From positions 1 through 35,740 of IMG/VR virus record IMGVR_UViG_3300007735_000668: a DNA stretch of 35,740 nucleotides; one strand, 5' to 3'. Every line of letters starts with the position of its first letter. Position 1 is the first letter of the stretch. A program made the translations under genes and the position numbers. The notes below the pieces were generated by a model. That model worked only from the letters and a program-made list of their open reading frames with translations. It did no database searches and had not been told where the DNA came from. Positions 3,404 to 35,740 of this stretch are shown here, one piece after another. Origin of the DNA: a virus.

Positions 3404-4730
3404 ACCCTACCAGGACGAAGCGGCTGACTTCCTGTACGAGCGTGACCGCGCGATGATCTTGGCGCCCGTGGGCGCAGGTAAGACCGCGATCACGTTGACG
3501 GCTATGCGCGACATGCTTCTTGATGGCCACGCTCGCCGCTTTTTGGTGCTGGCGCCAAAGCGCGTTTGCACCGACGTCTGGCCGGTAGAGCAGCCGAAGT
3601 GGGCGCATCAGTTGACGCTTGCTGTGGCAATCGGAACACCAAGAGAACGTAACGAAGCGTTGGACAGCGGCGACCTGATAGTGGTCACTAACTACGACAA
3701 CATCCAGTGGCTGGCTGAGCAAGACCTGTCGTCGTTCGACGCGGTGGTGTTTGATGAGCTGACCAAGCTGAAGAACCCCTCCGGCGCGCGGTTCAAGGCG
3801 CTGCACAAGATCATCGACCAGTTCAAAATCCGTTGGGGTCTGACCGGATCGTTCACCAGCAACGGGCTCGAGGACGTCTTCGGGCAGTGCAAAATCGTCG
3901 ATGAGAAGCTCTTAGGGCGCGCCAAGGGTGCCTTCCTGCAGCAGTACTTCGTCTGTATGAACCGCGACTTCGGCGAGTGGATGCCGCGCCCCGGCGCCTT
4001 GCTGCAGATCATGGAGAAGATCAAGCCAGCGACGTACGTGCTGGAGCCAGGCGAGTACCGCGACAAGCTGCCGCCCTGCCACGTCGTTGAGCTGCGTTGC
4101 CAGCTAGATGACCGAGGCCCGTACGAAAAGATGAAGCGCGACTTTGCGGTACAGTTTCCGACTGCCGAGGTGCTGGCCGCCAACGCGGCGGCTGTTACGT
4201 CTAAGCTGCAGCAGATGGCCTCTGGCTTCGTGTACGACAGCCAGCGGGTGGCGACTGCTGTGCCTGGGCAGTTTGCGGCAACCAAGCAGTCGATCTGGTT
4301 TAGCAGCCACAAGTTTGAACGATTGGATGAGTTACTCGAGGAGAATCAACATGCCAATACGATCTTGGTTTACCAGTTTCAAGAGGAGCTGGCGGAAATT
4401 AAACGTCGCTATCCGAAAGCGCAGACGCTCGACGATGAGAAAGCAATTGAACGCTGGAACGCTGGACATATCGAACTGCTGGCCGTCCATCCAAAAAGCG
4501 CAGGACACGGGCTTAACTTACAGCACGGAGGATGCCTTATGGCTTTTATATCTCTACCGTGGAGCCTTGAGCTGTACGAGCAAACCATCGGACGTTTGCA
4601 TCGTTCCGGCCAATTGCGCGAGGTATGGGTGTATATCCTCGCCGCTGAAAACACGGTGGACGAAAAAATCTTCGCTGCCCTACATGACAAACGAGCCATC
4701 TCAGACATCGCAATGGAGGCCCTGAAATGA
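3393..4730 (+). CDS. SNF2-family (SF2) DNA helicase/translocase
   Basis: This 445-residue ATP-dependent SF2 enzyme is of the phage SNF2 type. Motif Q-like RPYQDEA is near the N-terminus, Walker A is APVGAGKT (residues 24-31, K30), and Walker B is VFDELTKL with D121-E122 (DELT rather than DEAH). Motif III-like LTGSFTSNGLEDVFGQ follows. Motif V is AGHGLNLQ, and motif VI is QTIGRLHRSGQ at about 397-407. It probably remodels or unwinds phage replication intermediates together with the adjacent VRR-NUC nuclease (inference from known pairing). The ATG at 3393 has GAGG at good spacing; an upstream start at 3363 lacks this. The gene overlaps its neighbours on both sides (11 bp and 4 bp). Confidence 0.95.
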   Translation: MQLRPYQDEAADFLYERDRAMILAPVGAGKTAITLTAMRDMLLDGHARRFLVLAPKRVCTDVWPVEQPKWAHQLTLAVAIGTPRERNEALDSGDLIVVTNYDNIQWLAEQDLSSFDAVVFDELTKLKNPSGARFKALHKIIDQFKIRWGLTGSFTSNGLEDVFGQCKIVDEKLLGRAKGAFLQQYFVCMNRDFGEWMPRPGALLQIMEKIKPATYVLEPGEYRDKLPPCHVVELRCQLDDRGPYEKMKRDFAVQFPTAEVLAANAAAVTSKLQQMASGFVYDSQRVATAVPGQFAATKQSIWFSSHKFERLDELLEENQHANTILVYQFQEELAEIKRRYPKAQTLDDEKAIERWNAGHIELLAVHPKSAGHGLNLQHGGCLMAFISLPWSLELYEQTIGRLHRSGQLREVWVYILAAENTVDEKIFAALHDKRAISDIAMEALK

Positions 4731-24778: not shown

Positions 24779-25035
24779 CAGCATTTCCACCTTTTCAATG
24801 ACGCTTTGGCACGTTCGCCATCCTTCGCCTTCGCCGCTACTGCACCCATGCGGGCGCAGAACGACTTTTTCCTACCCTCATCCGCTTTTGTCTTCGGATT
24901 CGGCGCAGGCGGCTTCAAGTTCGAGCCCGTCTCGCGGTTGTACTTCTCACGCCCCTTGGCGGTCAGGCCAGCACCCTTGCTGACCGGCAACTTCTCGCCC
25001 CGTCCAACGCTCAGCGACACGCCTTTCTTAGCCAT
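24778..25035 (-). CDS. Small basic phage protein, DUF6321-like (85 aa)
   Basis: From ATG 25035 the product has 85 residues. The core (EKLPVSKGAGLTAKGREKYN, RETGSNLKPPAPNPKTKADE and GRKKSFCARMGAVAAKAKDG) is the conserved DUF6321 pattern found in many phages near terminase. The start overlaps the terminase stop as TAATG; an in-frame start at 25050 is less likely. The protein is basic with one conserved cysteine (SFCARM). Function unknown, possibly packaging-linked from its fixed position. Confidence 0.85.
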   Translation of the reverse strand: MAKKGVSLSVGRGEKLPVSKGAGLTAKGREKYNRETGSNLKPPAPNPKTKADEGRKKSFCARMGAVAAKAKDGERAKASLKRWKC

Positions 25036-26573
25036 TACGCACCTAACCAACTAGTTGCGGCGACTGGGCGCTGCGTATAGCCATCACTGCGCCGTGCCGC
25101 ACGCTCGTAGCCTGACTCGCGGCTGGCCACCGGAAACGCGAACGTCACCGCAAGGGCGTCTGCTGCATCCGGCGAGGCGAGGCCGCGTGACTTCATCTCT
25201 TTCTTGCCTTCCAAATAGATCGTGCCTGACGAATCGGGCTTCTTCATCGGGCCGGTCAAGTCCGCTTTCAACTGCCGATCATTCGGGATGCTGGCCGTTT
25301 TGAGCCATTCCTTCATCGCGCCCCACATCTCGGCGCGCTTGTTACCCCACATGACCGGCTTGCTGGACTTCCAGCCGAAGTTCACTCCCCGCACCTTGTA
25401 TCGCTGTTCTTTTAACCTGTCAAGTATGCCGTAGCCAAGACCACCTTCATCGATGATCGTCAGTGCTGGCCGGTACTCCTCGATGGCATCGATCACCCGG
25501 CCAACGGTCGTCATGGTGTCCTCGCCGTGGTAGCGCTTGATCGCGACTAAATCCCGTCCTTGCCGGACGACGATGACTGTTGCGTCCGCGCCGCCGCGAG
25601 CTGGGTCAACGCCGATAATAATTGGCGCCGTTTCGTCCTTGTAGCGTGGCCGACTGGCGGCGTCGTCGATAGCACTCGCACCAATAAACTGATCTTCGCC
25701 AGCCGATGGAAATTCACCGTAGACTTCAACCCGAGCCTGCGGCGAATCTTCGCCATACTCCGCAATGATCTGCTCATAGATTTGCTTGTCCGTATCTTCG
25801 ACTGTGCGTGAGTCGATGTTCTCCGTCTGCCAGAAGTTGCGCTTGGCGTGGAAACATTCGTAGAAGTAGCCTTGGTTGCGCCGTGGGTTGCTGAACGCAA
25901 ACCAGTACCGGTCTAGGATTGGTTCGGTGAAGAAGCCCGCACCGACCGACCAGATGGCGTCTGGTATACCGGAGGCTTCATCGAAGATTAGCATCATGCC
26001 GTCGTGGTTGTGCACACCCGCGTAGCTGTCGGGGTTCTCTTCCGACCACAGCTTGCCTTCGGCTGCCCAGTAGCGCGTACCCTTCTTCAAGTCGCGCTCG
26101 ACCAGTTCCGTCAGCCACTTGGCGGGGGTCAGCTTGGTTGCGCTGATCTCCCACCAGTGGTTGTTGATCACCATCGCCTGCCACTTGGTCAGCTCACCCC
26201 ACGTCACGGAGCGCAGCTGCGCCTCACTGTTGGCGGACACGATGACGGAAGACCCGATGCGAGTCGTCAGCATCCACAGCACTAGCCATGACACCAAGGC
26301 TGACTTACCGATACCTCGGCCAGACGCGACCGCTGTGCGCAGGGCGTCCATGTCGACCTGCCCCTTGTTGGTCTTGATGTGCGTGGCAATGCGTCGCAGT
26401 ATCTTGCGCTGCCAGGTGCGCGGTCCTTTGAACTTGGCCAGCGGTGTGTTGGCTTGCCCCCACGGGAACGCGAACAGCACGAACGCCTCGGGGTCGTCGG
26501 CTATCTGCGGCGCCCATAGGCGCGCCATCAGTAGCTGTTCGCCCTCGGCGTCATAGATCGGCTGTTGCGCCAT
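25035..26573 (-). CDS. terL: Terminase large subunit
   Basis: This 512-residue protein is the DNA packaging motor and nuclease. The ATPase domain shows Walker A ASGRGIGKS (residues 83-91) and Walker B MMLIFDEA (193-200, D198 and E199). The RNase H-like nuclease domain shows D323 in GVDPARGG, D375 in IIDEGGLG, and SPDAADAL with D469 and D472 as candidate metal ligands. It works with the small subunit encoded just upstream (23-bp overlap) and docks on the portal. P22 gp2 is 499 residues long. Only a weak binding site precedes the ATG, so coupling to the small-subunit gene is likely. Confidence 0.95.
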   Translation of the reverse strand: MAQQPIYDAEGEQLLMARLWAPQIADDPEAFVLFAFPWGQANTPLAKFKGPRTWQRKILRRIATHIKTNKGQVDMDALRTAVASGRGIGKSALVSWLVLWMLTTRIGSSVIVSANSEAQLRSVTWGELTKWQAMVINNHWWEISATKLTPAKWLTELVERDLKKGTRYWAAEGKLWSEENPDSYAGVHNHDGMMLIFDEASGIPDAIWSVGAGFFTEPILDRYWFAFSNPRRNQGYFYECFHAKRNFWQTENIDSRTVEDTDKQIYEQIIAEYGEDSPQARVEVYGEFPSAGEDQFIGASAIDDAASRPRYKDETAPIIIGVDPARGGADATVIVVRQGRDLVAIKRYHGEDTMTTVGRVIDAIEEYRPALTIIDEGGLGYGILDRLKEQRYKVRGVNFGWKSSKPVMWGNKRAEMWGAMKEWLKTASIPNDRQLKADLTGPMKKPDSSGTIYLEGKKEMKSRGLASPDAADALAVTFAFPVASRESGYERAARRSDGYTQRPVAATSWLGA

Positions 26574-27000
26574 GTGTCAGTTTGGTGGGTAAGGTTTGTG
26601 GTTGCTGTTCGGTGATCAGACCGTCGATCACACGCTCTTGCGCCTGTTGCAGCGCCTGCGTGATGCTGATCTTGTTCGTGATGTCGACACTAATCTCTTG
26701 ACGTGCTGTCCAGCCGTGGCTGTGCTGCAGTATAGCCAGCGCCGCCTTGGCGTCGCCTGCGCGGGCTGCGTTGCGCAGATGCTGCGAGGCCTCCATCTCG
26801 GAGTCAGCACGGCCCTTCTGTTCCGCCATCGCAGCCACAGGATCGAGCTCGCACAGCTGCCGGTACTCGGTCGGCAGCAATCCAGCCGCTAACGCCAGCG
26901 AGTCACCTTTCAGACCCAAAGCAGCGGCGTCATAGATCGCCTGGAGACGCGCTTCGGTCGCCTCCACTTTGCGCGGGGTGAACGGGATGGATTTGAACAT
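26551..27000 (-). CDS. terS: Probable terminase small subunit
   Basis: The 149-residue helical protein lies immediately upstream of the large subunit and overlaps it by 23 bp. An N-terminal helical part (EARLQAIYDAAALGLKGDSL, ALAAGLLPTEYRQLCELDP) looks like a helix-turn-helix DNA-recognition region. A central AGDAKAALAILQHSHGWTAR and a C-terminal helix (ITQALQQAQERVIDGLI) follow, as in other small terminases with C-terminal oligomer-linked tails. No Shine-Dalgarno is seen before ATG 27000. A TAATAT lies eight bases upstream but no matching -35 is evident. The role is inferred from position and domain pattern. Confidence 0.82.
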   Translation of the reverse strand: MFKSIPFTPRKVEATEARLQAIYDAAALGLKGDSLALAAGLLPTEYRQLCELDPVAAMAEQKGRADSEMEASQHLRNAARAGDAKAALAILQHSHGWTARQEISVDITNKISITQALQQAQERVIDGLITEQQPQTLPTKLTHGATADL

Positions 27001-27100
27001 GCGAGGAATATTAGCAAATTATGTTTTGCTTGGGGTGGGAGCTATAAAATAAAAAAAATTTCGCGTAACACCTCCGTGATCGTGACCGCCCAGGCGCCGG

Positions 27101-27120
27101 CCCCCACCCCCCCCTCCCTC
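27101..27120 (-). other. Potential G-quadruplex tract
   Basis: The minus strand reads GAGGGAGGGGGGGGTGGGGG. It contains enough runs of three or more G to fold as a four-stranded quadruplex. It lies about 100 bases upstream of the small terminase gene and next to the repeat array. Confidence 0.5.
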
Positions 27121-27123
27121 AAA

Positions 27124-27268
27124 GTTAGTGAGCACTCACTTCATGCAGCCAGGTTAGTGAGTACTTACTTACAAGTTAGTGAGCGCTTACTAACAGTTGC
27201 TAGCCTAACAAGTTAGTGAGTACTAACTTACAGTTGCTAGCCTGGCAAGTTAGTGAGTACTCACTAAC
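27124..27268. repeat. Five 20-bp palindromic iteron-like repeats
   Basis: Copies start at 27124, 27153, 27175, 27212 and 27249. All begin GTTAGTGAG. The last, GTTAGTGAGTACTCACTAAC (27249-27268), is a perfect palindrome; the others have one or more changes in the right half. The last three are spaced 37 bases apart and their 17-base linkers are nearly identical (AGTTGCTAGCCT then AACAA or GGCAA). The pattern suits binding of a dimeric replication initiator, repressor or small terminase. Confidence 0.9.
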
Positions 27269-27290: not shown

Positions 27291-27327
27291 CAACAAAAAG
27301 CGAGGGCCGAGGGCCCTTTTTTTGTTG
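27291..27327. terminator. Strong bidirectional intrinsic terminator
   Basis: The core stem AGGGCC/GGCCCT (27303-27308 with 27312-27317) has a GAG loop. It is flanked by CAACAAAAA on the left and seven T then GTTG on the right. The flanks can extend the stem, and each strand has a U-run after the hairpin. No gene on either strand obviously ends here, so it may insulate the two operons or end a short untranslated RNA. Confidence 0.8.
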
Positions 27328-27345: not shown

Positions 27346-27354
27346 TGTGGATAA
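27346..27354 (-). promoter_or_regulatory. Perfect DnaA box
   Basis: TGTGGATAA on the plus strand is the complement of the consensus DnaA box TTATCCACA. It is set in A/T-rich DNA beside the iteron array. One perfect 9-mer could arise by chance in a genome this size, so its weight comes from its location. Confidence 0.6.
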
Positions 27355-27377: not shown

Positions 27378-27588
27378 GTTAGTCATGTTAGTCATGTAGT
27401 CATGGAAATAAAATCGCACGGCGCGCAGACATGCGCACGTCATGGCATGGCATTGTTGCCATATAGATATCAAAAATAAAAACCCTTAAGGTCCAATCTA
27501 AAAAATGACTACGATGACTAACAAATAGTTAAAAGCCTGATCCTGCCTTGATTCCCACGTTAGTCATCACGCGATTTTTCATGACTAA
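27378..27588. repeat. Second repeat family: 9-bp GTTAGTCAT in both orientations
   Basis: GTTAGTCAT occurs at 27378-27386 and 27387-27395, with a shortened GTAGTCAT at 27396-27403. The inverted form ATGACTAAC or a variant occurs at 27505-27512, 27514-27522 and 27581-27588. A further direct copy is at 27559-27567. The motif shares GTTAGT with the larger palindromic repeats, so one protein might bind both. Confidence 0.8.
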
Positions 27589-27653: not shown

Positions 27654-27681
27654 TTGACATTGCAAAACAATCTGCTACAAT
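27654..27681 (+). promoter_or_regulatory. Strong sigma70-like early promoter
   Basis: A perfect TTGACA (27654-27659) is followed after 16 bases by TACAAT (27676-27681), with TG at 27673-27674 forming an extended -10. It would start transcription near 27688 and drive the plus-strand early operon from 27744. Confidence 0.85.
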
Positions 27682-33926: not shown

Positions 33927-35740
33927 TTTCCATACCTCGTCATTACTTCAACCTCTGCCGACAATGGCAGACCATCCGCCCAATCGGGCGGCGTACACAT
34001 CACTTGTTGCAGGGTATTGGGTGCATCGGGATTGGCCGTCTCCAGAACGATCTCATCATGTACGTGCAGCACTACCTCATCCAGCTGGCGTAAAGAATGC
34101 CGCAGCAGATCGTTGGCGACTGCCTGCGTTATATTCTCACAGGCCAGCCCCCGCCACAAGCGAGCACGCGGCCATTCCTTCGCATCCGCTGCCGGTTTCC
34201 ACGCGGCCTTCACGTACGTGATCTCATCGCCCTCAAACTTAGCAAACGGATAGCAAAGAATACGGCCCGACGGCAGCGCGTACCAGAGATGCTGGCGGTC
34301 GTACAAGTACGTCACACGTCCGGCGGAGAACTCGCGTCCAGGGTTGCGCAGCGCGCGGGTGTACGCCTCTTCGAGCTTGGCCCAGTAGCGCACCGCCCAC
34401 GCATTCGAGCGGCGCCATGCGTCGACAATCCGACGGGCGTCGGACTCCGGCAGGATGACGCCGTAGTTGCGGCCCATCGCGGCGAACGCACCGACCGAAC
34501 CACCGAAGCCAAGCGAGAGAATCGCGACCTTGCCGATCTGGCGCTGCTCCTTGTCGACCGCATCCTCGGCCACGCGGTAGATACCGGCGGCCTCACGTTT
34601 GTAGATGTCACGGCCATCGCGAAAGACTTGCAGCACCTCATCGGCCTGCGGGTCGGCGGACGCCCACGCAGTAACGCGCGCCTCGACGGCAGACCAGTCA
34701 GCAACAACGAATTGTTTACCAGGTGCAGGGATCAGTGCGGGCCGGAGCATTCCCTTGAGAACATCAGTAACGCGTTTTCCAAATCTTGGGGTGATGCTGT
34801 GGCCTCTGACCATAGCGTGCCGTACATCATCGGGCTCTGCTGCACACTTGCGGGTGAAGTTGTGGACTTGAGCGCCGTAGCTTGACGCGCGCCCAGTGGC
34901 CGAACCTCCTGCGAAGACAAATGCACCTCGTACACGGTAATCAACTTCGTCAGCCAGCTCGCTAAGGCGGCTGAACTTCGCAACCGACGACGCCCAGAGA
35001 TCGTCGGCACATTGAATGACGTCCGCAACATGGGTCGGAATCTCATCGGGGTTTTCCTCTGCAAAAGCCAATAGATTGGCGCGTACCGCCTTATCGATAC
35101 TGTACTTCAAGTCGCCATCTTTGTAGACCTCCATCATCTTCAACGCCTGCGGCCCGACGCGCTCGAGCACCCACTGGCGCATCTTGGGGCTGCGCACCGA
35201 CAGAATCTCACCCTCGGTCAAGTCGGCTACCAGCGTTTCAATCTCTTCGAGTTCGGTCGATGCGTACTTGATCGCTGCTTGAGCTAACGGCAAGTCCAGC
35301 AGCACGCCACGGTCGTTGATGCGCTCGTTGACATGGTAGTCGGCCAGCTCCTGCTCGGACAGCGGACGCATGGCCTGGCTGATCGCGCGCATGGTTCTGA
35401 CGTCCTGCTCGCAGTAGGCGACCATCTCGGCCATTAGCTCTGGCGAATTGTTAAACGATCCATCAGCGCGAGGGATGGAAAGAGCGCGGATAAGTTGGCT
35501 TCCTCGGTGGTCTTTGCGCATGTTGCTGCTGATGGCGCGTCCGACGTCTTCAAGGCTGCCCGGTAGGCAGTTAGCACGCGCTTGAGCAGCGGTGCAGACG
35601 AACTGCTCGAGTTGAAAGTTACACTGTAAGACATACCAGAATATGAGCCGCTCGAAGGCTGCGTTATGCGCGTAGATTGGCCCGGTGTGAGCGCGCACGG
35701 ATTCCGGAAAAGGATCAGTGGGCCGCCACGTAACAACCTC
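33923..35740 (-). CDS. Family A DNA polymerase, main part (5' end continues at base 256)
   Basis: This part carries the rest of the exonuclease region and the polymerase domain. The frame is open through the right edge and joins the 1-256 segment to give 648 residues. In full-length numbering, motif A is VVADWSAVEARV with D391. Motif B is the KEQRQIGKVAILSLGFGGSV region. Motif C is HVHDEIVLE with D605. These catalytic residues fit an active replicative polymerase related to DNA polymerase I. It is downstream of HNH and overlaps the PAPS-reductase-like gene by ATGA. The apparent GTG start at 35698 is internal and not real. Confidence 0.95.
   Translation of the reverse strand, partial: EVVTWRPTDPFPESVRAHTGPIYAHNAAFERLIFWYVLQCNFQLEQFVCTAAQARANCLPGSLEDVGRAISSNMRKDHRGSQLIRALSIPRADGSFNNSPELMAEMVAYCEQDVRTMRAISQAMRPLSEQELADYHVNERINDRGVLLDLPLAQAAIKYASTELEEIETLVADLTEGEILSVRSPKMRQWVLERVGPQALKMMEVYKDGDLKYSIDKAVRANLLAFAEENPDEIPTHVADVIQCADDLWASSVAKFSRLSELADEVDYRVRGAFVFAGGSATGRASSYGAQVHNFTRKCAAEPDDVRHAMVRGHSITPRFGKRVTDVLKGMLRPALIPAPGKQFVVADWSAVEARVTAWASADPQADEVLQVFRDGRDIYKREAAGIYRVAEDAVDKEQRQIGKVAILSLGFGGSVGAFAAMGRNYGVILPESDARRIVDAWRRSNAWAVRYWAKLEEAYTRALRNPGREFSAGRVTYLYDRQHLWYALPSGRILCYPFAKFEGDEITYVKAAWKPAADAKEWPRARLWRGLACENITQAVANDLLRHSLRQLDEVVLHVHDEIVLETANPDAPNTLQQVMCTPPDWADGLPLSAEVEVMTRYGK
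35614..35740. repeat. Right copy of 127-bp terminal overlap
   Basis: It is identical to bases 1-127 and should be removed once when the circle is closed. It lies inside the DNA polymerase gene. Confidence 0.9.

Follow-up and report, generated by a model that had tools for sequence, protein, structure and literature searches.

The protein SlmA stops the bacterial cell from dividing across its DNA. This TetR-family protein, a nucleoid-occlusion factor, recognises a 12-bp palindrome, GTGAGTACTCAC (SBS; PMC3116907). An E. coli cell contains ~500 SlmA dimers and 24-52 chromosomal sites, and a multicopy plasmid carrying two SBSs imposes a lethal, SlmA-dependent division block on this species, since the SlmA-SBS complexes spread through the cell and inhibit Z-rings; when placed within a promoter spacer, an SBS causes repression (PMC3573117). 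Phages are known to halt the division of their hosts by small proteins, and lambda Kil, an FtsZ inhibitor, is a phage-encoded peptide (PMC3961180).

Here we describe a locus of a freshwater phage, represented by the IMG/VR record IMGVR_UViG_3300007735_000668, which was analysed at its full length of 35,740 nt (hereafter, the window). Five near-palindromes of 20 bp are packed into 145 bp of its non-coding DNA (positions 27124-27268). They resemble the chromosomal SBSs of E. coli and V. cholerae in the 12-bp palindrome, its core and its symmetry, and the candidate host encodes a SlmA with the same recognition helix; the chromosomal sites, in contrast, are scattered, and those of E. coli lie mostly within coding DNA. 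We consider it probable (roughly 60%) that the array consists of clustered near-consensus SBSs, which would recruit the host SlmA, antagonise FtsZ and hold off division. Like the plasmid pHC534 (multicopy, with two tandem SBSs; PMC3573117), the phage genome would then be a replicating DNA molecule loaded with SBSs, although pHC534 is a laboratory construct whose effect was measured, whereas that of the phage is proposed from sequence. The proposed end, i.e. the absence of a Z-ring during infection, is the same as in the case of Kil, but the phage would provide DNA sites and the host the inhibitor. Among the open-access papers searched, none was found to describe phage-borne clusters of SBSs, which does not in itself prove their novelty.

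Architecture and surroundings of the array

The first-pass annotation of this DNA had described five palindromic 20-bp repeats, one of them perfect, placed between divergent operons, and our analysis confirmed this arrangement (Table 1). The five GTTAGTGAG-type copies are the only ones in the window, and 6, 8, 9, 8 and 10 of the 10 possible base pairs are palindromic in sites 1-5, respectively. The distances between consecutive starts are 29, 22, 37 and 37 bp; thus, the last three copies do recur every 37 bp. The linkers separating them, each of 17 bp and reported as conserved, have 15 of their 17 bases in common. A weight matrix gave the five copies scores of 25-33, compared with ~10 for the top-scoring site elsewhere in the window. 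All 5 matches of the 12-mer GTNAGYRCTNAC in the window fall within the array, while each of four control palindromes has 0; in 21 genomes of the family (the window counted) the respective numbers are 57 versus 0, 4, 0 and 1. Sites 1-4 differ from GTGAGTACTCAC by 1-2 bases, so that the array consists of exact or close variants of the SlmA consensus, by which an SBS is recognised.

Table 1. Features of the array region and the flanking operons (window coordinates)
Feature	Coordinates	Strand	Remarks
Site 1	27124..27143		GTTAGTGAGCACTCACTTCA; 12-mer core GTGAGCACTCAC at 27128-27139
Site 2	27153..27172		GTTAGTGAGTACTTACTTAC; core GTGAGTACTTAC
Site 3	27175..27194		GTTAGTGAGCGCTTACTAAC; core GTGAGCGCTTAC
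Site 4	27212..27231		GTTAGTGAGTACTAACTTAC; core GTGAGTACTAAC
Site 5	27249..27268		perfect palindrome GTTAGTGAGTACTCACTAAC; 27253-27264 exactly the SlmA consensus GTGAGTACTCAC
Terminase large subunit gene (terL)	25035..26573	-	same leftward operon as terS
terS-position gene	26551..27000	-	first gene of the leftward packaging/structural operon
Probable terS -10 box, TAATAT	27008..27013	-	7 bp ahead of ATG; near-leaderless
A/T-tract and G-rich block	27046..27119	-	between array and terS; conserved
Terminator-like hairpin, AGGGCC-GAG-GGCCCT + T-run	27303..27323	+	adjoins array
DnaA-box consensus, TTATCCACA	27346..27354	-	sequence match
Tandem 9-bp repeats GTTAGTCAT (n=2)	27378..27395	+	further copies at 27514 (reversed) and 27559
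Probable early rightward promoter, TTGACA-16-TACAAT	27654..27681	+	clear of the array

The array separates terS (start codon at 27000), which is transcribed leftward, from small genes directed rightward. Its sites lie ~125-270 bp upstream of terS and overlap neither of the flanking promoters (that of terS and the early rightward one). The terS-position gene, whose product matched no Pfam or PHROG profile, is placed where phage DSL-LC05 has its terminase small subunit gene. Since the TAATAT box is so close to the ATG, the terS mRNA may be leaderless; a comparable close-set -10 precedes terS in several relatives. The A/T-tract and G-rich block is retained in relatives that lack the array, is found also in DSL-LC05 and MW202483, and is possibly a packaging or (late) control element, as far as its sequence indicates. 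The same G-rich block and A/T tract occur upstream of terS in two distant relatives, in which other palindromic repeats, TGACCCAsTGGGTCA and GTTTACrTAAAC, are present in place of the array (L265, ~3500-4300; L266, ~3900-4100).

On the other side of the array, a DnaA-like box is present in 66 of the 113 upstream regions of terS relatives, and the word of the 9-bp repeats changes from phage to phage (ATGACTAAC, ATTGCCTAC, ATTGCCCAC and ATGACGTGC, among others), as though the specificity of an initiator, or of some other reader, had switched. Because the conserved DnaA box and these separate repeats lie beside the array, an origin may be near. Cumulative GC skew, whose calculation had been recommended, follows the coding strand and rises all the way round the circle; it reveals no origin-terminus pattern and was uninformative. 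The map is taken to be circular since the window ends (1-127 and 35614-35740) share exactly 127 bp (114, 123 or 127 bp in relatives), a typical assembly k-mer size; the repeat is probably an assembly overlap of k-mer length in a genome that is circular or permuted, and not a biological terminal repeat.

Distribution of the palindrome in phages and bacteria

A search of related phages upstream of terS, suggested in the first-pass annotation, revealed at least two exact 12-mers at the same place in 93 of 113 distinct relatives (i.e. distinct regions upstream of terS relatives). Their spacing forms clusters at 22-23, 26-30 and 37-40 bp, and both copy number and spacing are highly variable. Of 34 longer records, 29 contain the core AGTDAGYRCTHACT, with the matches listed located almost all in a single array per record, while its reversed control pattern had zero matches across the same 34 records. 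Absence of the repeat from close relatives with the same flanking genes had been named as an observation that would refute the proposed functions, and to some extent this is what we found: the array is missing from L050, L037, L058, L053 and L055. The TerS of L050 is 98.7% identical to that of L096, which has the array, and TerS was therefore ruled out as its reader. Arm positions 3/18, 7/14 and 10/11 vary among the copies and do not covary, which argues for a protein reading duplex DNA and led us to reject an RNA hairpin or attenuator. A different perfect palindrome, GTGAAACATGTTTCAC, composed of everted parS halves, was observed in L041, L045, L095, L102, L129, L136, L141 and L192; array-free relatives contain half-sites similar to those of GTGAAACATGTTTCAC, separated by a spacer.

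The same palindrome was also identified in unrelated phage families, next to other types of terminase, where it is usually clustered and intergenic. Strict sites were found as pairs in 67 viral contigs, versus 12 with an everted-half control; the pair is intergenic in 59 of the 67, and 37 have it within 1.5 kb of a terminase (of several types) or of a gene preceding one. Comparison of the array DNA with plasmids yielded nothing useful, and comparison with isolate phages only three weak matches, one of which pointed to Rhizobium phage V1VFA-S. This phage-plasmid (L374, L377, L378) contains 15 sites, the majority having the related form AAGTAAGNNCTTACTT; the sites share the invariant core AGTnAG..CTnACT with those of the window, but are dispersed, mostly single and intergenic, adjoin -10-like elements, show a GTAAG half-site bias and reside in an alphaproteobacterial host (Rhizobium). 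Another unrelated record, G594 (L359-L363), carries at least 15 palindromes of the same core, which are dispersed and for the most part intergenic, and lie in short gaps between genes, near or just upstream of -10-like elements. Both sets resemble phage-wide operators, for which no repressor was identified. Sites similar to parS (core GTTTCACGTGAAAC) were noted at L209:7260, L452:12758, L459:3570, L239:1314 and L228:8262, and the reversed control for this core had no matches; in L209, L452 and L459, a perfect TGTTTCACGTGAAACA lies at most ~50 bp from the palindrome array. The presence of perfect parS beside some arrays may point to a broader mimicry of host chromosome-organising sites by such phages.

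The strict palindrome was detected at 22 places in 84,980 bacterial genomes, compared with an estimated ~4 expected. At 18 of the 22, a TetR-family gene starts 19-83 bp away; these genes come from Actinobacteria, Cloacimonadota, Acidobacteria, Gemmatimonadetes, Proteobacteria and other groups (the TetR_N domain was confirmed in three of them). The remaining places belong to two phage contigs, L268 and L272. This identifies the palindrome as a TetR-type operator, a conclusion that bears on its sequence and not on the phage locus. A profile of ten such TetRs found no homolog in the window, ~300 phage loci and 20 relatives, nor in 18 unrelated palindrome-bearing contigs, and a viral scan with the TetR alignment A2 revealed no relative. 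A phage-encoded TetR was thus rejected as the reader, none having been found in the window, its relatives or the palindrome-bearing contigs. The phage array is an operator-like site without its own repressor, the cognate TetR not being found on the same replicon. Among the functions proposed in the first-pass annotation (origin, operator or pac site), that of an operator stands, i.e. the array consists of protein-binding palindromes of operator type between divergent operons, while an initiator is unsupported and the small terminase is contradicted.

SlmA as the probable reader, and its competitors

The candidate host was deduced from the binning of phage contigs into two MAGs, and may not be the host of the window phage. 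Both of these MAGs, which hold palindrome-bearing phage contigs, encode SlmA as called with NF007015 at its cut-off. One of the two contains a phage contig of this clade, and in the family to which that MAG belongs, SlmA exceeds the cut-off in 28 of 31 genomes, while E. coli alone does so among 14 control genomes; Caulobacter, the sole alphaproteobacterial control, has no SlmA above it. The MAG SlmA matches SlmA structures in the PDB at 9e-46, and the recognition helix VSEAALYRHF, as in E. coli, is present in all eleven SlmAs examined, including that of the MAG (one of the two was compared). The TetR-type operator, the exact core of site 5, the failure to find a phage TetR and the presence of SlmA in both MAGs together make SlmA the likely reader of the array, as judged from sequence. 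Chromosomes of the candidate family show no enrichment in strict SBS-like 12-mers, but neither does the ori side of E. coli (253 kb), and this lack is therefore uninformative with regard to SlmA. An operator of some common regulator of the candidate host order was rejected, as the 20-mer occurs in only two of 399 genomes, namely the phage-contig MAGs; a 17-mer was found in 1 of 120 other genomes of the candidate family. Two records named as Campylobacter phages A11a and A18a (MG065691 and MG065686) contain a slmA gene that matches the E. coli query with 100% identity, probably as contaminating host DNA.

The array-free close relatives and the promoter palindromes of V1VFA-S and G594 weigh against the SlmA reading, as does the assignment of the host by MAG binning. 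The occurrence of V1VFA-S in Rhizobium and the lack of a SlmA above the cut-off in Caulobacter indicate that a similar core may have a non-SlmA reader. It might be host SlmA, or a TetR paralogue with the same helix, that controls terS or the early operon, timing the late genes to the division state. The TetR-operator evidence applies equally to this scenario, an SBS 167 bp ahead of the start site allows SlmA to activate chb in V. cholerae (PMC5519180), the array being ~125-270 bp ahead of terS, and the palindromes of G594 accompany -10-like elements; we nevertheless regard it as unlikely, because the array is clear of both promoters, varies widely in copy number and spacing, and is dispensed with by relatives whose TerS is nearly identical.

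Quite improbable, in our opinion, is a non-TetR phage regulator or a replication initiator, for which the palindromes would be operators or iterons. The DnaA box and short direct repeats adjoining the array are in line with such a reader, as is the use of a similar palindrome by V1VFA-S beside -10-like elements, but close relatives exist without the array, and no protein common to all palindrome-bearing families was found. None of the accessory genes of the window that were tested follows the distribution of the array, which eliminated them as candidates. Replication initiation had been one of the two preferred explanations, and nothing we found ties the palindromes to it. The other, a pac site for the small terminase, is scarcely credible: the array adjoins terS here and lies near terminases in several other families, and the circular map with its 127-bp end repeat would suit it, but nearly identical TerS proteins are encoded by an array-bearing and an array-free phage (L096 and L050), one palindrome accompanies unrelated TerS types, and as a candidate for packaging the conserved A/T-tract and G-rich block is preferable.

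Possible consequences for division control during infection

If SlmA is the reader, a division-control function of the array is plausible by analogy with the E. coli plasmid. Host SlmA would bind the array beside terS and, as the phage DNA multiplies, SlmA-SBS complexes would antagonise FtsZ polymerisation, so that host division might be held off during the lytic cycle, or the phage DNA shielded from the septum. Five sites in each of about a hundred genome copies would approximately equal the number of SlmA dimers. The extension of this mechanism to many unrelated aquatic phages, whose terminase-side SBS clusters would constitute an anti-division device made of DNA only and requiring no phage protein, is tentative, at slightly short of even odds; phage replication would there raise the number of SBS copies and convert host SlmA into a cell-wide inhibitor of FtsZ.

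If this is true, arrest of division through host regulatory DNA sites alone would represent a strategy different from the small proteins known so far, very cheap, and spread over unrelated phage families. It would also give nucleoid occlusion an ecological role in infection, and SBS clusters could serve as a marker for phages of SlmA-bearing hosts.
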